64,000 bases of DNA from Burkholderiales bacterium PBB6 (GTDB lineage: Bacteria > Pseudomonadota > Gammaproteobacteria > Burkholderiales > Burkholderiaceae_C). The stretch spans positions 62,001-126,000 of the forward strand of contig NKIH01000004.1 of assembly GCA_002255925.1 (NCBI GenBank). Reading direction: 5' to 3'. The notes beneath the pieces were generated by a model. It saw only the letters and a list, made by a program, of their open reading frames with translations, ran no database searches and was not told the DNA's origin. The translations under genes were made by a program, and so were the position numbers. Positions 49,051 through 58,324 of this stretch are shown piece after piece; the first letter of the stretch is position 1; each line of letters opens with the position of its first letter.

Positions 49051-52020
49051 ATGAACACAGAAGACCTGTTTGACACCCGATCCACGCCTGTTCCGGCCGG
49101 CCCGGGGGACAGGACAATGCCTCCGCAGCCGATCAGCGAAGAGGTGCTGATCGAGAAGTACGCCAAAGGCAGCGAGAGCTCTGTGGGCGAAGTGCGCGCT
49201 CGCATTGCGCGCGCCCTGGCCGTGGTTGAAGCGCCCGAGCAGCGCGCCCACTGGGAAGCCGAGTTCCTGCGCGCTCAGGAGCTGGGCTTCGTGCCGGCCG
49301 GCCGCATCAACTCCGCCGCCGGCACCGACCTGACTGCCACCCTGATCAACTGCTTCGTGCAGCCGGTGGGTGATTCCATCGCGTCGGATGAAGACGGTTT
49401 CCCCGGCATCTACACCGCCCTGACCGAGGCGGCTGAAACCATGCGTCGCGGCGGCGGCGTGGGTTATGACTTTTCCCGCATCCGCCCGCACGGCGCCTGG
49501 GTGGGCTCGACCCAGTCCAGCGCGTCCGGCCCGATCAGCTACATGCGCGTGTTCGACCGTTCCTGCGAAACGGTGGAATCGGCCGGTGCGCGCCGCGGTG
49601 CCCAGATGGGTGTGCTGCGCTGCGACCACCCGGACATCGAGGCCTTCATCCACGCCAAGGACCAGGGCGATCTGCGCAACTTCAACATCTCGGTTGGCGT
49701 GACCGATGAGTTCATGCAGGCCGTGCAGACCGGCGCCGATGTGCAGCTGGTGCACCGTGCCGAGCCGGGCGCCAAGCTCAAGGCCGGCGGTGCCTTCCAG
49801 CGTGCTGACGGCCTGTGGGTGTACCGCACGCTGCCGGCGCTGTCGCTGTGGGACCAGATCATGCGGTCCACCTATGACCATGCCGAGCCGGGCGTGCTGT
49901 TCCTGGACCGCATCAACCAGGACAACAATCTCAGCTACTGCGAAACCATCGCCGCCACCAACCCGTGCGCCGAGCAGCCGCTGCCGCCGTATGGCTGCTG
50001 CTGCCTGGGCTCGATCGACCTGACGCACTTCGTGCGCGAGCCGTTCGAGGGGGGTGCTTTCTTCGACGACGACGCCTTCGCCAAGGTGGTGGCCGTGGCC
50101 ACCCGCATGCTCGACAACGTGCTCGACGTGACCGTGTGGCCGCTGGAGCGCCAGCGTGAAGAAGCCGCCAACAAGCGCCGCGTGGGCCTGGGCTTCACCG
50201 GCCTGGGTGATGCACTGGTGATGCTCAACCTGCGCTACGACGGCCAGCCCGCCCGCGACATGGCCCGCCACATCAGCGAAGTCATGCGCGACGCGTCGTA
50301 CAACGCCAGCGTCGATCTGGGCCTGGAGCGCGGCGCGTTCCCGCTGTTCAACGCCGACATGTATCTGTCGCGCGGCACCTTCGCATCGCGCCTGCCACAG
50401 GGCGTGAAGGACCGCATCCGCGCCCACGGCCTGCGCAATTCGCACCTGCTGTCGATCGCACCGACCGGCACCATCAGCCTGGCCTTCGCCGACAACGCCA
50501 GCAACGGCATCGAGCCGGCCTTCAGCTGGACCTACACCCGCAAGAAGCGCATGCCCGACGGCAGCTCGAAGGAGTACGCGGTCGAAGACCACGCGTGGCG
50601 CCTGTATCGCCACCTGAAGGGCGCCGATGCACCGCTGACCGAGGCCTTTGTCACCGCGCTGGAAATGAGCGCCGAGGCCCATGCCCAGATGGTGGCCGCC
50701 GTGGCGCCCTGCATCGACACCGCCATCTCCAAGACGGTGAACGTGCCGGCCGACTACCCCTACGCCGATTTCCAGGACCTGTACATGATGGCCTGGAAGT
50801 CGGGCCTGAAGGGTCTGGCCACCTACCGTCCGAACTCGGTGCTGGGCTCGGTGCTCAGCGTCACGCCGACGGCCGCCCCGGCCGCACCGGCGGTGCCGGT
50901 GGTGGAGCCCGCCCCGCTGACCACTGACGGCGCCAACCAGCGCCTGAAGCTCGACAAGTCGCCCAAGGCCGTGCTGACCAGCCTGCGCTGGCCCGGCCGC
51001 CCTGAAATGCGCGGCGGCAACCCGGCCTGGAGCTACATGATCCAGCACCCGCACGGCGACTTCGCGCTGTTCGTGGGTGAACTGCCGGCCGAAGCCGGCC
51101 CCGACGCCGGCCTGTTCGGCCGCACCTTGCCGTTCGAGGTGTGGGTGAATGGCGCCGAGCAGCCTCGCGGCCTGGGTGCACTGGCCAAGACGCTGTCGAT
51201 GGACATGCGGGTGAATGATCCGCAGTGGCTCAAGCTCAAGCTCGACACCCTGGCCACCGTGGCCGAGGAGCGCTCGTTCGAGATGGCCTTCCCGCCGAGC
51301 GGCGAGAAGCGCCTGTTCCCGGGCGTGGTGGCTGCCACCGCCGCGGTCATCCGCTGGCGCTGTGAGCAGCTGGGTTCGCTCGACGCCGTCGGCCCGACCC
51401 CGGTGCTCGACGCCATGTTCAGCCGCGACGAGCCGCGCACCACCACCTCGGGCACGCTGGCCTGGGCGGTGGACGTGGACAACCCCGCCACCGGTGAAGC
51501 CTTCACCCTGACGCTGAAGGAAGTGGCGCTGGCAGATCCGGACGCCCCGAGCGGCTACGTGACCCGCCCCTGCGCCATCGGCTTCTCGGGCAACTACCCG
51601 AAGGCGCTCGACGGTCTGGCGCGTCTGCTGTCGCTCGACATGCGCGTGATCGACCCGGCCTGGGTCGGCATGAAGCTGCGCAAGCTGCTGAACGTGGGCG
51701 AGCCGCTGGGCCACTTCATGGCACCGGTGCCGGGCCAGAAGCGCCAGCAGATCTGGCCGAGCACGGTGGCCTACGTGGCCCGCCTGGTCATCCACCGCTA
51801 CGCGATGCTGGGTGTGCTCGACGAAGAAGGCTTCCCGATCAACGCCATGGGCATCCTGGAAGCGCCTGAGCGCAAGGTTGCACCGGTGGCTGAAGACGCC
51901 GCCGGCAAGGTCAGCCCGATGGCTGGCAAGCCCTGCCCGGAATGCGGCAACGCCACGATGATCCACAAGGACGGCTGCGATTTCTGCACCGCCTGTGGCT
52001 ATGTCGGGCAGTGCGGCTGA
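49051..52020 (+). CDS. nrdJ: Adenosylcobalamin-dependent ribonucleotide reductase with duplicated C-terminal module
   Basis: A 989-residue class II ribonucleotide reductase, oxygen-tolerant and using B12 to make the thiyl radical. It shows the active-site Cys in [32 protein letters not shown] with the radical Cys and Glu, and [20 protein letters not shown]. The C-terminal tail ([26 protein letters not shown]) carries the redox cysteines. Between them two related TSCPD-type repeats occur (about residues 689-785 and 836-925). ATG 49051 follows GGAAAAGAAG; a further upstream in-frame ATG is less likely. Confidence 0.94.
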
Positions 52021-52071
52021 GGGCGCGCCTGAGGACTGGAATCACCTGAACAGGTCGTTCGGGTCCGCGTA

Positions 52072-52941
52072 TCAAGTTCGATCGCTACGCCGGTGCGGCC
52101 TGCCCAGCCTCAGGCCAACGCCCTGTGCCAGATGGGCGACATGGCCGGGCCGGCTGAGCACCTCGAATTCGGCAAGCCTGGCGAGGCCGAGCGGGTCTTT
52201 GGCTTCGGCCACTGAGCTCGGGTGGCACATCAGCAGATCGCCCGGCCGCGCCGAAGCGATCCATGCCGTGAGCAAGGTCTGGTAGCGCGCTGCGCCGCCG
52301 CTGAAGTCATAGACCCCGAGCAGCCGCTCATTTTGCGCGCAGCCCGCCGCGCGGGCTTGCGAGGCCAGCGCACGGGCTCCCACCTGCTCGATGAACCAGG
52401 CCTTGAAGCGCTCGGCGACCCTCGTGGCACCACCGGTGCGGCGGCGCGTTGAGCGCAGCCAGGGCAGGGCGCCATAACGCCGCAACAGCTCCGCGATCAA
52501 TGCCTCGCGGATCGTGGGCAGCTGGTGCACGTGCTGGTGTCCGTCCACGAAGTCCGGCGGGCGCCCCATCACCGTCTCGAACGCGTCGAGCTGGGCCTTG
52601 ATTTCGTCACGTATCCGTACGCGGTTCAGGGCGCCGATGTGGCTGCCCACGATGAGGGCGCCAAGGCCGCGCCGCGACACCTGCAAAGGATGCTCCGTGA
52701 AGTCGAGGTGCAGGCCGGTTTCCAGGTCTGCGCAAGACCGAAGTTCCGGGCCGTCTGAACGCCACAGCGGTGCCCCGACCATGCAGGCCACCGCATGCAC
52801 GGTGCCGGCATCGTTCAACCGCAACACCGCGTCATCGATGCCGGCGCACAGGCCGAAATCATCGACGCAAAGGCAGAGTGTGCGGTCAGCGCCGTTATGC
52901 TCTCGCGCACCATGAGCCTGCGCTTCCGTTCCGTCACCCAA
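52072..52941 (-). CDS. YdjC/ChbG-family carbohydrate deacetylase, NaxD/LgmC-like
   Basis: About 289 residues of a YdjC-family deacetylase: LCLCVDDFGLCAGIDDAV with the metal-binding Asp pair, ETGLHLDFTEHPLQV, and DGHQHVHQLPTIREALI. In Francisella NaxD and Bordetella LgmC, such enzymes remove the acetyl group from undecaprenyl-phosphate-N-acetylhexosamine before transfer to lipid A. Start uncertain: TTG 52941 is used here; in-frame ATGs at 53034 and 53109 would overlap the divergent gtrA-like gene heavily. Adjacent glycosyltransferases support the lipid A role. Confidence 0.85.
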   Translation of the reverse strand: MGDGTEAQAHGAREHNGADRTLCLCVDDFGLCAGIDDAVLRLNDAGTVHAVACMVGAPLWRSDGPELRSCADLETGLHLDFTEHPLQVSRRGLGALIVGSHIGALNRVRIRDEIKAQLDAFETVMGRPPDFVDGHQHVHQLPTIREALIAELLRRYGALPWLRSTRRRTGGATRVAERFKAWFIEQVGARALASQARAAGCAQNERLLGVYDFSGGAARYQTLLTAWIASARPGDLLMCHPSSVAEAKDPLGLARLAEFEVLSRPGHVAHLAQGVGLRLGRPHRRSDRT

Positions 52942-53337
52942 CGCGCCAACCAAGGGCGCATCGCCTGGTTTCTGCTCGTTGGATGTGGTGCTGCGGCCAT
53001 CCACTGGACGGTTGTCGTGGGCTTGGTCAGCCATGGCGCCTGGCAGCCCTTGACGGCCAATGTGGTGGGTTGGTTGACGGCATTTCTGTTTTCTTTCGCG
53101 GGGCATCATCGGCTGACGTTCCGAGACCGCCGAGTTCTCTTGCGCACAGCGGCACCGCGGTTTTTCGCCATCTCGGCCGGCGGCTTTGCGCTCAACGAAT
53201 CAGCCTATGCACTGTTGCTGGGCTTCGGGCTGGCATCGAGCTATCAATGGGTGCTGCTGGCCGTCTTGATCGGTGTGGCAGGGGTCACTTATCTGCTGAG
53301 CCGGCATTGGGCGTTCCTCGGCAATCCAGCGCCTTAG
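52912..53337 (+). CDS. GtrA-family small membrane protein
   Basis: A 141-residue protein with four predicted helices and the GtrA pattern: RIAWFLLVGCGAAAIHWTVV, WLTAFLFSFAGHHRLTFRDR, and LLSRHWAFLGN at the end. GtrA proteins are thought to help move undecaprenyl-linked sugars across the inner membrane. Here it is divergent from the deacetylase gene and its 3' 53 bases overlap the convergent GT39 gene. It may correspond to LgmD of the Bordetella lipid A glucosamine locus (from memory). Confidence 0.85.
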   Translation: MSLRFRSVTQRANQGRIAWFLLVGCGAAAIHWTVVVGLVSHGAWQPLTANVVGWLTAFLFSFAGHHRLTFRDRRVLLRTAAPRFFAISAGGFALNESAYALLLGFGLASSYQWVLLAVLIGVAGVTYLLSRHWAFLGNPAP

Positions 53338-54856
53338 CCTCGATGCGCCAGAGCGTTCTACCCTTGTCGCTCATCAGCGCCGGCAGCTCGGCCAGCATGG
53401 GCCACTCCTGGCGCACCACGGCCGCATCGCCCAGCACCCAACTGACAGGCGATGCGCACAAACCGTCGAGCAGCCTCGCTGGCTCGATCAGCACCTGGCG
53501 GTCTTGCGGTGATGCGAACTGGCTCGCGTCGGCGATCTCCTTGCGCCAGTTGTCAGAGGCCTGCACCGAGGGGCTGCGCCAGTCGTCCACGATGGTCACG
53601 GGGTCGGTCAGGCGCGCATGAAACGGCAGGTCATAGGCGTACTGCCGCAGCATGAAAACTTTCTCTCCCGCCAGGCGCTGGCGGTTCAGCACATCGGCAA
53701 AGCCCTGTGATGTTTTCAGTGGATGCCGTGCCAGGTAAGCGATCGTGCCGAGGCTCACCAGCACCGTGAGCGCCAGCGACACGCGCCACCAGAACAGCAG
53801 TCTGGGACGTGGCGGCCTGAAGACGAAGCTGTCGCCAATGAAGTAGGCCAGCGGTGGCACGGCAGGCAAGACGTAGCCCACCAGCTTGGATTGCGGCAGC
53901 GAGAAGAAGCCGACGATGCAGACCAGCCAGACCAGCATCAAACCGCCGATCTCATCGCGCTCGGCATCGCCTGGCTGGCGTTGGCGCCTGAGAAGCGATG
54001 TCAGCCAAGGCAGCCACGGCAAGCTCAGCAACAGCAGCAGCGCTGGATAAAACCAGAAGGGCTGGACGTTGTTGAAGCCGCCGCCTGCAAAGCGCTGGAA
54101 GTGCTGCACCACAAAAAAGTAGTGCAGGAAATCCGGGAACCGCTGTTGCTCGGCGATGAACCACGGGGCGGTGATCATCAGGAACAGCGCCGCGCCCGGC
54201 AAGGAGCACAGGCGCAGCAGCAGGCGCCAGCGCCCGCTGATCACCAGCCACACGCCGATCACCAGCGCTGGCAGCACCAGGCCGATCAAACCCTTGGCGA
54301 GCACACCCAGCCCGGCCACCACGTAAGCGCCAACCAACGCGCTGCGTGATGGTGCGTGGTGCGCCATCGACAGCACCGCGTCGGCTGCCAGCAAGATGGT
54401 GGCGCTGATGCAGCCCGCCACGAGCATGTCCAGATTGGCGAACTGCGCACCGATGAAGAACAAGGGCTGGACGCACAGCACGGCGACTGTCCAGCGTGCC
54501 ATGCGTTGGCTGCGCCATCGGCGCAGGAACACATAGAGCGCGAAGGCGCCCAGCGTCGCCCCCAGCACCGAGGCCACACGCGCCGCCCACTCGTGCATGC
54601 CGAAGAGCTTCAGCGCGCCAGCCGTGATCCAGTAGAACAGCGGTGGCTTGTGGAAGAACGGCATGCCGTCCAGCGTCGGTGTCAGCCAGTCGCCTGATCG
54701 CAGCATCTCCCAGGCGACGCCGACATAGCGACCTTCATCCGGCAAGGCCAGCGACCGCCAGCCCGCCGTCAGGGCGAGCCAGCCGAGGATGAGGGCGGCC
54801 ACGCCCCACAGCTCCCGCGTCGGCAGACGTGGGAGCACCTGTCCCTCCGCCCTCAT
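53285..54856 (-). CDS. ArnT-like lipid A glycosyltransferase (GT39/GT83)
   Basis: A 523-residue membrane glycosyltransferase with about 11-13 helices. The first periplasmic loop reads LPDEGRYVGVAWEMLRSGDW, then FHKPPLFYWITAG, matching the ArnT DE-x-R-Y and KPPL motifs. Such enzymes transfer sugars from undecaprenyl phosphate to lipid A phosphate on the periplasmic face. A C-terminal soluble domain of about 150 residues follows. Its start (54856) overlaps the GT2 stop (ATGA), so the two are coupled. Confidence 0.88.
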   Translation of the reverse strand: MRAEGQVLPRLPTRELWGVAALILGWLALTAGWRSLALPDEGRYVGVAWEMLRSGDWLTPTLDGMPFFHKPPLFYWITAGALKLFGMHEWAARVASVLGATLGAFALYVFLRRWRSQRMARWTVAVLCVQPLFFIGAQFANLDMLVAGCISATILLAADAVLSMAHHAPSRSALVGAYVVAGLGVLAKGLIGLVLPALVIGVWLVISGRWRLLLRLCSLPGAALFLMITAPWFIAEQQRFPDFLHYFFVVQHFQRFAGGGFNNVQPFWFYPALLLLLSLPWLPWLTSLLRRQRQPGDAERDEIGGLMLVWLVCIVGFFSLPQSKLVGYVLPAVPPLAYFIGDSFVFRPPRPRLLFWWRVSLALTVLVSLGTIAYLARHPLKTSQGFADVLNRQRLAGEKVFMLRQYAYDLPFHARLTDPVTIVDDWRSPSVQASDNWRKEIADASQFASPQDRQVLIEPARLLDGLCASPVSWVLGDAAVVRQEWPMLAELPALMSDKGRTLWRIEAKALDCRGTPNAGSADK

Positions 54857-55941
54857 GGGCTCGGCGCCTTGCCCAGGCCTTGGCCCATGAGCTTCTTCAC
54901 GATGTACAAGGGCCGCGCCTTGACCTCTTCGAAGATCCGGCCGATGTACTCCCCCAGGATGCCGACGGAGACGAGCTGGATGCCGGAGAACAGCATCAGC
55001 CCGACGACGATGGTCGTCCAGCCGCTGACATCGTGCCCGTAGGCGAAATAAGAAAACGTCAGGTATGCGCCATAGGCAAATGCACACAAGGCCAGCAATC
55101 CACCCATCGCGCTGACCGCACGCAGCGGCCAGGTGGTGAATGCCGTCAGGCCGTCCAGGGCCAGGCCAACCAGCTTCAGCGGCTTGTAAGCGCTTTGGCC
55201 ATGCAACCGCGCTGCGGGCACGTAGGGCACGGCCACGGCGTCAAAGCCCACCCAGGCGTACAGGCCCTTCATGAAGCGATTGCGCTCCGGGAGCGCGAGC
55301 AGCGACGACACGACGGCGCGGTCAATCAAGCGGAAATCGCCCGCATCGACGGGCACGTCGAAGCGACCCGCCGTGTTGAGCAGCCGATAGAACCAGCGCG
55401 TGCCCCATTGCTTGAAATGGCTCTCATCGTCGCGGTGCGCCCGCACGGCATAGGCCACATCGGCGCCGGCCAGCCAGTAGCGGACAAAGGTCGGAAGCAG
55501 GCTGGGCGGGTGCTGCAGATCGGCGTCCATCATCACCACGACCTCCCCGGTGCTCGCCTGCAGCCCGGCCGTCAGCGCCGCCTCCTTGCCGAAGTTGCGC
55601 GACAGGCGAATGATGACGAGGCCCGGCCGTGTCGCCCATTCATCGAACAGGGCGCCGCTGGCGTCGGTGCTGCCATCGTCAACGAGGATGATTTCCCACG
55701 CCGTACTGCATTCGCTCAGTTGGGCCGTCAGTTGCGGCAGGAGCAGTGCGAGGTTCGCCGCCTCATTTCGGCAGGGAATGACACAGGACAGCGTGGGCAG
55801 GTGCCCGCGTTCCGATTGAGCCGCCATGACACCGAGGGGCCGGGGCAGGGCGGGTGTGGCCATACTGCGTTCCCTCGCCGCTATCGCGGACAGCTCGGGA
55901 GCGCGGTGTAAGGCCTCGATTGCAGCGAGGGCTTCGTTCAT
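54853..55941 (-). CDS. ArnC/GtrB-like undecaprenyl-phosphate glycosyltransferase (GT2)
   Basis: A 362-residue GT2 enzyme. After a variable N-terminus: LSCVIPCRNEAANLALLLPQ, ILVDDGSTDASG, VVVMMDADLQHPPSLL, then two C-terminal membrane helices ending ILGEYIGRIFEEVKARPLYI, as in ArnC, GtrB and FlmF. It moves a sugar from a nucleotide donor to undecaprenyl phosphate on the inner face of the membrane. ATG 55941 follows AGAGACC; ATGs at 55863 and 55827 are possible alternatives. It is the first gene after the two-component genes on the same strand. Confidence 0.9.
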   Translation of the reverse strand: MNEALAAIEALHRAPELSAIAARERSMATPALPRPLGVMAAQSERGHLPTLSCVIPCRNEAANLALLLPQLTAQLSECSTAWEIILVDDGSTDASGALFDEWATRPGLVIIRLSRNFGKEAALTAGLQASTGEVVVMMDADLQHPPSLLPTFVRYWLAGADVAYAVRAHRDDESHFKQWGTRWFYRLLNTAGRFDVPVDAGDFRLIDRAVVSSLLALPERNRFMKGLYAWVGFDAVAVPYVPAARLHGQSAYKPLKLVGLALDGLTAFTTWPLRAVSAMGGLLALCAFAYGAYLTFSYFAYGHDVSGWTTIVVGLMLFSGIQLVSVGILGEYIGRIFEEVKARPLYIVKKLMGQGLGKAPSP

Positions 55942-56005
55942 GGCGGTCTCTGGCACTGTTGGTCGCGGTGTGACGCGGGGGTAGGAACAGTATCCAGACT
56001 AAATG

Positions 56006-56030
56006 TGACAGCCCTTCAAACGCCTGACAG
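56006..56030 (-). promoter_or_regulatory. TGACAG direct repeat upstream of the GT2 gene
   Basis: TGACAG at 56006-56011 and 56025-56030 are the same half-site 19 bases apart in the 111-base gap between the histidine kinase and GT2 genes. A candidate site for the adjacent response regulator; weak evidence. Confidence 0.35.
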
Positions 56031-56052
56031 TTGGTGCCGCGTGGGCGGGTGC

Positions 56053-57468
56053 TCAGTTTGGCAGCGGGAACCGCACGATCACACGCAGACCGGTTGGCCG
56101 TCTGTCCGAATGATCGGGGTTCCGGTCAGCGAGCGTCGCCGTGGCGTTGTGCCTGAGCGCAACCTCCTGCACGATGGCCAGCCCGAGACCGCTGCCGCCT
56201 TGGGCCGCGCCGGCGGCTTGATAGAAGCGCTCGAACACCTTGGCGCGCTCGTCCACTGGTATGCCGGGGCCGTCGTCTTCCACTTCCAGCACGCTGGTGC
56301 CATCGGCCTGGGTCGAGGCGCGCACCGTCACCCGGCCTTGTGGCGGGCAGTGTCGGATCGCGTTGTGAATGAGGTTGCCGATGAGCTCGCTCAACATCCA
56401 GGCAGAGCCGCGCACCAGCGCGGGGTGGGCGTCAAACCCCAGGTCCACCTCTGCGGTGAGCGCGAAGTCCAGCCAGCTGGAGGCGGCCTCTTCCAGCAGT
56501 GGTTGCAGATCAACGATCTGGAAGGTCTCGGCCTGGATCGCCTGGGGCCCTGAACGCGCCAGCGCCAGCATCTGGCTGGTCGAGCGGCCCATGCGCAGCA
56601 TCGCGCCGTGCAAGGCGTCCAGCCGCACGCGCTGGTGGGGATCGGCGTCCTTGCGCGCCAATTCGATTTGCGTCTGCATACCGGCCAGCGGTGTGCGCAA
56701 CTGGTGTGCCGCCACCGAGAGAAAGGCTTGCTGAGAGGCTGCCGAGTCGCGCAGGTGGGCCATCAGCCGGTTGATCGAGCCGACCAGAGGGAGCAGTTCG
56801 CCCGCCAAGCCGTCGTCCGGCACCGGGCTGAGGTCGTCCGGCTCACGAACTGACACGGCATGGCGCAGCCGATCAAGCGGCTTCATGCCCCAGTGAACGC
56901 CGATGTAGACCAGGCCGAGTGCGAGCACCACCAGGATCAGATCAGGCAGCACCGTGTCCGCCAGCACGACCTTGGCCTGTGCATCTCGGCGCCGGGTGGT
57001 CTCAGCCACGATCACGCTGACCACGCCGGCGCTGGTCTGGTGCGGGTAGGTGACCACCCGCAGGGTTCGTCCAAGATAGACGCGATCCACGAAGGTGGCC
57101 TTGTCCAGGTGAGGGTTCGCACTGGCCATGTCCTTCAGGGCGAGCTCGTCGCCAATCAGGTGGCCGTCCACGCCGCGTACCAGGTAATGCAGTCGATCTT
57201 CGGCGTCGGCTCTTTGCATGGTCAGCACCATCCGGGCCAGATGCGGCGCGAGGTCGTCTCCGTCGGTGTCGTCGGCATCCAGTTCGAGGCGTGAGGCCAG
57301 GGCAATGGCCATGCGCTCCAGCGCGAGGTCCTGGCTGTCGGTGGCGCGGTCCAGCGCGCCGTGATAGTCGTAGACGGCGCTGAGCACCAGCACGGCGAAC
57401 AGCGGCCAGCCAACCATCCGCAGCAGACGTCCCCGCAGGGTGGCGCGACGGCCGCTGGCTGGGTTCAT
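56053..57468 (-). CDS. Sensor histidine kinase, TctE/QseC type
   Basis: A 471-residue membrane kinase. Helix 1 (LFAVLVLSAVYDYH) and helix 2 (about 175-195) flank a periplasmic 2CSK_N-type domain. HAMP-like residues follow, then HisKA with His255 (LSVAAHQLRTPLAG) and HATPase_c with NLIHNAIRHC, VEDDGPGIP and GGSGLGLAIV. Its start overlaps the response-regulator stop (ATGA). It likely senses envelope or small-anion signals; the ligand is unknown. It is upstream of the GT2/GT39 genes on the same strand, which suggests control of envelope modification. Confidence 0.92.
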   Translation of the reverse strand: MNPASGRRATLRGRLLRMVGWPLFAVLVLSAVYDYHGALDRATDSQDLALERMAIALASRLELDADDTDGDDLAPHLARMVLTMQRADAEDRLHYLVRGVDGHLIGDELALKDMASANPHLDKATFVDRVYLGRTLRVVTYPHQTSAGVVSVIVAETTRRRDAQAKVVLADTVLPDLILVVLALGLVYIGVHWGMKPLDRLRHAVSVREPDDLSPVPDDGLAGELLPLVGSINRLMAHLRDSAASQQAFLSVAAHQLRTPLAGMQTQIELARKDADPHQRVRLDALHGAMLRMGRSTSQMLALARSGPQAIQAETFQIVDLQPLLEEAASSWLDFALTAEVDLGFDAHPALVRGSAWMLSELIGNLIHNAIRHCPPQGRVTVRASTQADGTSVLEVEDDGPGIPVDERAKVFERFYQAAGAAQGGSGLGLAIVQEVALRHNATATLADRNPDHSDRRPTGLRVIVRFPLPN

Positions 57469-58127
57469 GTGTCGATCCGGTAGCCGATGCCGCGCACCGT
57501 GCGGATGCTCGGACCGGCTTCGCCCAGCTTGGCGCGCAGGCGCGACACGTAGATCTCGACGGCGTTGTCCGTCACTTCCTTGTCCCAACGGCTGAGCGAG
57601 TCAGCCAGCCGGCGCTTGGACACCACCTTGGGCGCAGCCAGCACCAGGGCTTGAATCAGATCCCACTCGCGGCCGGTGAGCGAAATGGGTTGTCCCTTCA
57701 ACTGGGCCTCGTGGGTGGACAGATCCAGCGACAGCGGACCGACCACCAGTTGTGAGCTCGCGACGGACTGACTGCGCCTGATCAAGGCCTGCACCCGCGC
57801 CAGCAGTTCGGGCAACTGGAAGGGCTTGATCATGTAGTCGTCGGCCCCGTCGTTGAGGCCACTGACGCGGTCGGACAGCCCGTCGCGGGCCGTCAGAATC
57901 AGAATGGGGAGCCGGCAGCCGGCGGCCCGCAGTCGGCGCACCAGGGTGTGGCCATCCATGCCGGGCAGGCCGAGATCCAGGATGAGCAGGTCGTGCATGC
58001 CATGCGCCAAGGCATCGGGCACCCGCTCGGCTGCGGGCAGGTGATCCATCTCGTAGCCCGCGCGCGTCAGGGCCTCGCTCAGGCCGGCGGACAGCAATTC
58101 GTCATCTTCGACCAGCAAGATACGCAT
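57465..58127 (-). CDS. OmpR-family response regulator (TctD/QseB type)
   Basis: A 220-residue response regulator. The receiver (1-115) has acidic pocket VEDDE, phosphoacceptor Asp51 (LILDLGLPGMDG) and Lys in YMIKPFQLPELLAR. The winged HTH (about 125-220) includes TGREWDLIQALVLAA and VEIYVSRLRAKLGEAGPSI. It is first in the predicted five-gene-strand order RR-HK-GT2-GT39. Its phosphorylation by the neighbouring kinase is inferred from the coupled genes. Confidence 0.94.
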   Translation of the reverse strand: MRILLVEDDELLSAGLSEALTRAGYEMDHLPAAERVPDALAHGMHDLLILDLGLPGMDGHTLVRRLRAAGCRLPILILTARDGLSDRVSGLNDGADDYMIKPFQLPELLARVQALIRRSQSVASSQLVVGPLSLDLSTHEAQLKGQPISLTGREWDLIQALVLAAPKVVSKRRLADSLSRWDKEVTDNAVEIYVSRLRAKLGEAGPSIRTVRGIGYRIDT

Positions 58128-58324
58128 GGGTCCGCGTCAGGGTGAAGCCGGCTTGATTGTGGACCCAAGGTGCACGCCCACGGCGGCCTGAAGCGGGTTG
58201 GCGATAGGCAATGCCAATCAGGGGCATTCGATCAATCAATCCACAACATCAGCCGCCCGGCCTAAGATTCAACCCGTCGCAGCTTTGTGCTGCACCCCTT
58301 TTACTCACCGCAACAGGAAACTCC

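Follow-up and report, generated by a model that had tools for sequence, protein, structure and literature searches.

We examined a 64,000-nucleotide stretch of Burkholderiales bacterium PBB6 (contig NKIH01000004.1, positions 62,001 to 126,000; hereafter the window), in which a putative amino-sugar lipid A modification module lies next to a two-component system (TCS) consisting of a response regulator (RR) and a sensor histidine kinase (HK). The locus contains six genes and one promoter-like element, listed here by window position:

57465..58127, minus strand: OmpR/PhoB-family RR (Pfam Response_reg and Trans_reg_C).
56053..57468, minus strand: sensor HK with a 2CSK_N input region (Pfam 2CSK_N, HisKA and HATPase_c).
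55996..56030, minus strand: conserved box CTGTCAG-N3-TTTGAAGG-N11-TAGTCT, with copies beside orthologous TCSs in other genera.
54853..55941, minus strand: GT2, a GtrB/ArnC-type polyprenyl-phosphate sugar transferase with a putative LgmA/FlmF2-like role (Pfam Glycos_transf_2).
53285..54856, minus strand: GT39, an ArnT-like, putative lipid A glycosyltransferase with an LgmB/FlmK-like role (match to 5ezm and key residues).
52912..53337, plus strand: GtrA-type small membrane protein (Pfam PF04138, 5e-20).
52072..~52941, minus strand: YdjC/NaxD-type deacetylase with a provisional TTG start at 52941 (Pfam YdjC, 6e-42).

The Lgm role names in this list follow gene-to-family assignments that we take to hold for the Lgm system. 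An earlier reading of the same DNA (the sequence-only reading) had described these six genes and the ATGA overlaps that couple the RR to the HK and the GT2 to the GT39, and we confirmed all of them where that reading had placed them. The HK is separated from the GT2 by a gap of 111 bp, which contains the conserved promoter-like element. The GtrA gene is antisense, tail-to-tail with the GT39 gene (53 bp overlap) and head-to-head with the YdjC gene (~30 bp overlap); since it lies on the opposite strand and overlaps both neighbors, it falls outside the operon. The sequence-only reading had also proposed an operon-linked sensor: a tie between the TCS and the module is probable, given the footprinted box between HK and GT2. 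At the thresholds used, YdjC and GT39 are each single copy in their own genome.

The conservation of the glycosylation genes was surveyed in 120 GT39-centered loci. Of these, 40 are regions from the top matches in a family sample of 150 genomes, and 80 are the best of at least 561 matches in the genome collection; all were chosen as the best GT39 matches and hence are no random sample. Merging at 90% identity removed 17 near-duplicates and left 103 clusters, and arrangements were counted in the 80 clusters that have at least 3 kb on both flanks (the other 23 have less than 3 kb on one side). GT2, GT39 and YdjC occurred together in 54 of these 80 clusters, GT2 and GT39 only in three, and GT39 alone, defined as no GT2, YdjC or GtrA match within 4 kb, in 23. 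The exact order and strands of the window (GT2+ GT39+ GtrA- YdjC+) were found in 22/80 clusters, whose members include Comamonas terrae, Simplicispira hankyongi, Thiobacillus thioparus, Accumulibacter aalborgensis, Bordetella trematum (L129) and Achromobacter agilis; the same anatomy was seen in the Achromobacter loci L143, L144 and L146. Since the set recurs in 54 of 80 relatives that were picked by GT39, its grouping exceeds chance, and the glycosylation module is a recurrent one in Burkholderiales. As a side observation, the partners of the 23 lone ArnT-like GT39 loci (e.g., L034, L037 and L076) may sit elsewhere in those genomes.

The GT39 belongs to PMT_2/PMT by Pfam, and the ArnT of C. 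metallidurans (CmArnT; 5ezm, E 3.7e-50) is the one solved structure related to it by sequence at E <= 0.001. Eight critical CmArnT positions, catalytic or concerned with the carrier phosphate, were taken from PMC8306577 (papers with PMC accessions, here and below, are cited for excerpts of their text). In the 5ezm alignment, these positions map to D40, R43, H69, K70, D143, K188, R255 and Y328 of the window GT39, in which seven of the eight CmArnT residues are retained (D55, R58, K85, D158, K203, R270 and Y345) and the sole change is E84 to H69. Among 104 aligned rows (103 cluster representatives and the window), R43, H69, K70, D143, K188 and R255 were constant; D40 was D in 103 rows and E in one, and Y328 was kept in 103 and gapped in one. 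The histidine at position 69 was present in all 63 clusters that have both GT2 and YdjC close by and in all 23 lone clusters; in eight remotely related GT39 proteins from the genus of the window, this position is D (seven) or G (one). Within the sample, His for Glu-84 thus characterizes the ArnT subfamily by alignment, and it could possibly distinguish hexosamine transferases from those for 4-amino-4-deoxy-L-arabinose (Ara4N). The protein scored 191 bits against the ArnT equivalog model, short of the cut-off of 567; we therefore call it ArnT-like rather than ArnT.

The solved structure nearest to the GT2 is sll0501 (GtrB; 261 bits, 1.6e-76), followed by ArnC (~160 bits, 4.8e-46 to 1.4e-45), and its score against the ArnC equivalog model was 186 bits (cut-off 529). 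The sequence-only reading had labeled the GT2 ArnC-like; among solved structures, GtrB is the nearer match. Membership in the arn (Ara4N) pathway was rejected because the GT39 and GT2 scores are far under the ArnT and ArnC cut-offs. By family and coupling, the two genes are predicted to form a polyprenyl-phosphate-sugar GT2 coupled to a GT39. The YdjC protein has one solved relative, which is weak (7vi8, 1.1e-6). Its residues D30, D31, H81, H138, H140 and H243 were invariant in 14 aligned rows and presumably form the metal/catalytic site. Two other identities for this protein, hopanoid HpnK (60 bits, cut-off 233) and chitin-disaccharide deacetylase (57 bits, cut-off 227), were rejected.

The conserved GT2, GT39 and YdjC genes with or without GtrA, the seven retained CmArnT positions and the Bordetella trematum arrangement agree with the proposal of the sequence-only reading, and the window locus is best read as a putative member of the Lgm/Flm/NaxD kind, adding a hexosamine to lipid A phosphate. 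In Bordetella, glucosamine modification of lipid A requires lgmA-C, while lgmD can be dispensed with (PMC4993483), and LgmB puts glucosamine on lipid A phosphates (peaks at m/z 1586, 1748 and 1909; PMC8168481). As described, the lgm activities match those predicted for the window module; the four-gene arrangement is that of Bordetella trematum, and, in correspondence with the dispensable lgmD, no GtrA was found in L032 (genome G116), the nearest relative of the window locus (identity 88% for RR, 71% for HK and 64% for GT39). Judged by family and anatomy, the window enzymes may carry out the same lipid A chemistry as Bordetella Lgm. The regulation differs: lgm answers to BvgAS, which is encoded elsewhere, whereas the window has an adjacent RR-HK pair and its own box. 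In Francisella FlmF2/NaxD/FlmK, the deacetylation step of NaxD follows the same logic as that proposed for the window YdjC. We know of no TCS or box linked to this Francisella system. Likened by description, the two share a polyprenyl-phosphate hexosamine and an ArnT-like transfer (PMC8306577, PMC4688374); the Francisella sugar is galactosamine, whereas that of the window would be glucosamine or galactosamine.

We then considered the adjoining TCS. The best NCBIfam model for the RR was PmrA (220 bits, cut-off 330), and those for the HK were QseC and PmrB (154 bits against a PmrB cut-off of 314); formal membership in PmrAB or QseBC was rejected, as the scores of both proteins are far beneath the curated cut-offs. 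The 2CSK_N input region is shared by the window HK and the two orthologs scanned (G103 and G042). Ten of the 103 clusters had an RR-HK pair at no more than 500 bp from the module (10.2 per 100 kb of flank), compared to 3 pairs in 512 kb at a distance of 2-5 kb (0.6 per 100 kb). This amounts to a ~17-fold enrichment (binomial p 2e-6; 5e-5 if Thiobacillus and Accumulibacter contribute a single count each). Scoring was confined to the nearest pair of each cluster, which slightly lowers the far bins. Further pairs were found at 500-1000 bp in two clusters and at 1-2 kb in another two. In the RR tree, in which the GT39-linked label also took in a few RRs more than 500 bp from a module, GT39-linked pairs were spread over several clades with six label changes, at least three of them forced by strong branches. 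A single common ancestor of all GT39-linked TCSs was rejected on these label changes, and the scatter indicates that OmpR-type TCSs were paired with such loci more than once. One example is the Accumulibacter ACC003 locus L107 (4915-8560), a second TCS-GT39 operon, in which ATGA overlaps at both joints link the RR, the HK and an ArnT-like GT39 that has no module partners nearby; its RR falls in another clade than that of the window.

Control of such modules by a TCS has precedents. In A. baumannii, PmrAB controls naxD, which encodes a YdjC-type deacetylase for the addition of an amino sugar to lipid A (PMC6635527); at the window, a TCS would likewise govern a module that has a YdjC-type deacetylase. 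Unlike A. baumannii PmrAB, the window RR and HK score under the PmrA and PmrB cut-offs, adjoin the module and have kin that are mostly cytochrome-linked. In Xanthomonas, raxRH (a ColRS ortholog) adjoins arnT-lpxE-eptA (PMC8306577), so that a TCS stands next to an ArnT-like gene as it does here, but the gene set differs; the text of PMC8306577, the source of this comparison, nowhere mentions YdjC. The initial two-site ColR consensus ACGNNTTTTTNAC (PMC2689224) is unlike the window box. The contrast with BvgAS drawn in the sequence-only reading is sound with respect to the adjacent TCS but overstated as a novelty, because PmrAB-naxD and raxRH-arnT were already published. The enzymes themselves add another example to an established type of module.

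The sequence CTGTCAG-N3-TTTGAAGG was noticed when the HK-GT2 gaps of the window and L032 were compared. This short pattern was exact in 7 of 204 loci, six of which are overlapping loci of the window and G116; in the seventh, L162 (G103), the box stands directly behind the orthologous HK and precedes a cytochrome b561 gene instead of GT2. L164 and L165 carry the box with two and one mismatches, respectively, also ahead of b561. The window genome contained one exact and seven two-mismatch matches to the short pattern, and the reversed control gave three. We scanned 299 family genomes with the extended pattern TGTCAG-N3-TTTGAAGG-N11-TAG, allowing at most one mismatch. Eight genomes had a match: it was exact in five (G000, which is the window genome, G116, G103, G051 and G309), all beside the orthologous TCS, and carried one mismatch in G042, again beside the orthologous TCS, and in G264 and G209, away from it; the reversed control pattern matched once. 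G153 and G383, which were recovered later through the HK alone, carry the exact extended box.

The 38-bp block containing the box had a mean identity of 64% in six genomes, versus 25% and 33% in its 48- and 40-bp flanks. The -10-like hexamer was TAGNNT in 8/8 copies, its final T not being demanded by the pattern, and the distance from the box to the GT2 start was 89 bp in both lipid A loci. Positions 56013-56030 are a putative RR-binding site, and positions 55996-56001 are a candidate -10 element. The spacing, with a putative repeat over the -35 region and the -10 about 11 bp further on, was conserved in the eight copies, the half-sites being weakly alike; this layout would fit an OmpR/PhoB-type activator site. 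A sigma-70 consensus scan of the region returned no promoter (0.6 expected), which is compatible with an activator-dependent promoter but lends no support to one, and terminator-like matches in the region equaled chance (4 versus 3.6). Autoregulation of the RR was considered and rejected: in the window, L032 and L162, nothing ahead of the RR matched the box with two mismatches or fewer; three-mismatch copies lay ~75 bp upstream of the RR in L032 and 345 bp upstream in the window.

Orthologs of the window HK, called at E <= 1e-85 in 399 family genomes, were found in 10 genomes, window included. Behind the TCS, the box is followed by GT2-GT39 in the window and G116; in six other genomes (G103, G309, G153, G042, G051 and G383) it precedes an operon for a b561, an outer-membrane CxxCH protein and a cytochrome c, which is divergent from the RR-HK pair in G042, G051 and G383. 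One of the cytochrome-linked genomes, G153, belongs to the genus of the window. The tree of RR and HK nests the lipid A pair among the cytochrome-linked rows (98/97 with G309, 98/99 with the full set of three on that side). It also places the window TCS nearer to that of G116 than to that of its genus-mate G153. Because the lipid A pair is nested inside the cytochrome-linked clade, a conserved regulator and promoter seem to have received a different output operon. In two genomes with a TCS ortholog, G135 (L163) and G235 (L233), another RR-HK pair, only 35-40% identical to the ortholog, lies tail-to-tail with it.

The outer-membrane cytochrome, which had no match in G000 or G116 at E <= 0.001, contains a single CxxCH and the signature A[VL]PS[FY]ARQT...CxxCH...PQL in all six genomes. 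The strict Cyc2 motif AXPXFAR[Q/K][T/Y], as excerpted from PMC8406198, is present in four of the six proteins (Y stands for F in the other two), and the heme-motif distances are 3 and 5 residues versus the published 5 and 4. Scanned alone, the copy of L164 matched no Pfam or NCBIfam family, so the Cyc2 assignment stays at the level of signature and length. Fused cytochrome-porin operons of the Cyc2 type lie outside the window; the Cyc2-like signature was found in neighbors of the orthologous TCS in six genomes.

In the window, the module is located between nrdJ and ahpC (slot 52020-58211). Only one of the 16 genomes of the genus, the window's own, has a full GT39 ortholog; eight others have GT39 matches at 31-34% and seven have none. 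The flanking genes are common in the genus (nrdJ in 15/16 and ahpF in 16/16). The nrdJ-ahpC interval holds different genes in five sister regions (L170-L174): one has two small open reading frames, two have an ABC exporter together with a phosphatase-like gene (by Pfam on one of them), and the remaining two have other genes. The module accordingly occupies a variable slot. By eye, the pair of small frames in one sister slot looks toxin-antitoxin-like. In two genomes, the nrdJ matches are split in two within one long frame (G155:C1:310203-313877 and G162:C108:5312-9364; 1238 and 1361 aa), a pattern expected of an in-frame insertion, for instance an intein.

From the enzyme families, the GT2 would load an N-acetylhexosamine onto undecaprenyl phosphate, the carrier-linked sugar would be flipped across the membrane, possibly with assistance from GtrA, YdjC would strip the acetyl group, and the GT39 would transfer the free-amine hexosamine to the lipid A phosphate. 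Footprinting suggests that the HK, through its 2CSK_N input, phosphorylates the OmpR-type RR, which would bind the TGTCAG-N3-TTTGAAGG box over the -35 of a promoter with a TAGNNT -10 and turn on GT2-GT39. The ancestral regulator and promoter may have driven the cytochrome operon, which lipid A genes would have replaced in the lineage of the window and G116, thereby inheriting the signal of the cytochrome regulator; the regulator-module pair would then have moved between genera, landing here in the nrdJ-ahpC slot. We consider it probable, on this sequence evidence, that the locus is an Lgm/NaxD-type module switched by a box-binding RR-HK pair taken over from a cytochrome operon.

Several observations weigh against this conclusion. 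The TCS occurs together with lipid A genes in two genomes only, most modules of the sample have no adjacent TCS, and two TCS orthologs, G135 and G235, have neither the box nor the cytochrome operon, G235 being boxless although it was recovered later in the same way as G153 and G383. Among the 204 loci, the exact box is confined to the window, G116 and G103, and in L032 it overlaps the end of the HK. The box was first defined by eye on the window and L032, and its TAG part was added after L162, L164 and L165 had been seen; the fresh positives are therefore only G309, G153 and G383. In addition, YdjC is on the GT39 strand but starts ~343 bp past the GT39 stop, with the antisense GtrA in between. 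One alternative is a TCS that is just a neighbor of a real lipid A module and controls other genes or nothing nearby, the box being a relic of a lost cytochrome operon. In its favor, adjoining TCSs are the exception in the sample, the nearest TCS kin are mostly beside cytochrome genes, and by anatomy neither YdjC nor GtrA clearly belongs to one transcription unit. However, the window and L032 have diverged considerably (HK 71%, GT39 64%, flanks randomized), yet the fixed positions of the box and the 89 bp spacing were kept, and TCS adjacency to such loci is ~17-fold enriched. We regard a neighbor-only TCS as unlikely.

Another explanation concerns the enzymes, as GT2, GtrA and GT39 could form a GtrABC-like cassette for O-antigen or core, or act on another envelope molecule. 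Indeed, GtrB is a closer match to the GT2 than ArnC is, the locus includes a GtrA gene, and the acceptor is not readable from sequence. Against this stand the GT39, whose only solved relative at E <= 0.001 is an ArnT and which keeps seven of the eight acceptor/carrier positions, the linked YdjC, which fits a NaxD-type deacetylation, and the identical anatomy of Bordetella trematum, in the genus of which lgm glucosaminylates lipid A (PMC4993483, PMC8168481, as excerpted); we find such a cassette quite improbable. Slightly less probable again is a dedicated, PmrAB-type sensor of cationic peptides or envelope stress, inherited vertically with the module. The top models, PmrA for the RR and QseC and PmrB for the HK, and the precedent of A. 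baumannii, where naxD is under PmrAB (PMC6635527), would favor it, but every score is far under the curated cut-offs, the strong RR clade around the window contains no GT39-linked TCS except that of L032, and the closest kin are mostly cytochrome-linked. For this last reason, the tuning to envelope stress or cationic peptides suggested by the sequence-only reading found no support.

If the regulator was taken over from a cytochrome operon, iron or redox state is a fair guess for its signal, at least as plausible as envelope stress, since the sensor type is common with the cytochrome-linked orthologs and Cyc2-like genes are its usual neighbor. Enterobacterial PmrAB responds to iron, and iron-sensing here would be a parallel case. 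A tentative possibility, which we hold to be doubtful, is that iron or redox state triggers amino-sugar capping of lipid A through the re-used regulator of a Cyc2-like operon, a PmrAB-like logic reached independently. Among the openly licensed papers listed in our searches, we found no report of a TCS that controls a lipid A module and has orthologs adjoining cytochrome operons with the same box, and no title or abstract opening that links the regulation of Cyc2 or b561 to the modification of lipid A.

Taken together, amino-sugar lipid A loci have been joined to two-component systems at least three separate times. If the takeover from a cytochrome operon is correct, the window locus would represent a clean natural case of regulatory rewiring, in which an orthologous TCS and a near-constant box are kept and the operon differs between genera and within one genus. 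The box is a concrete candidate binding site, and the TCS is a candidate regulator of the Cyc2-like operon in Burkholderiales.

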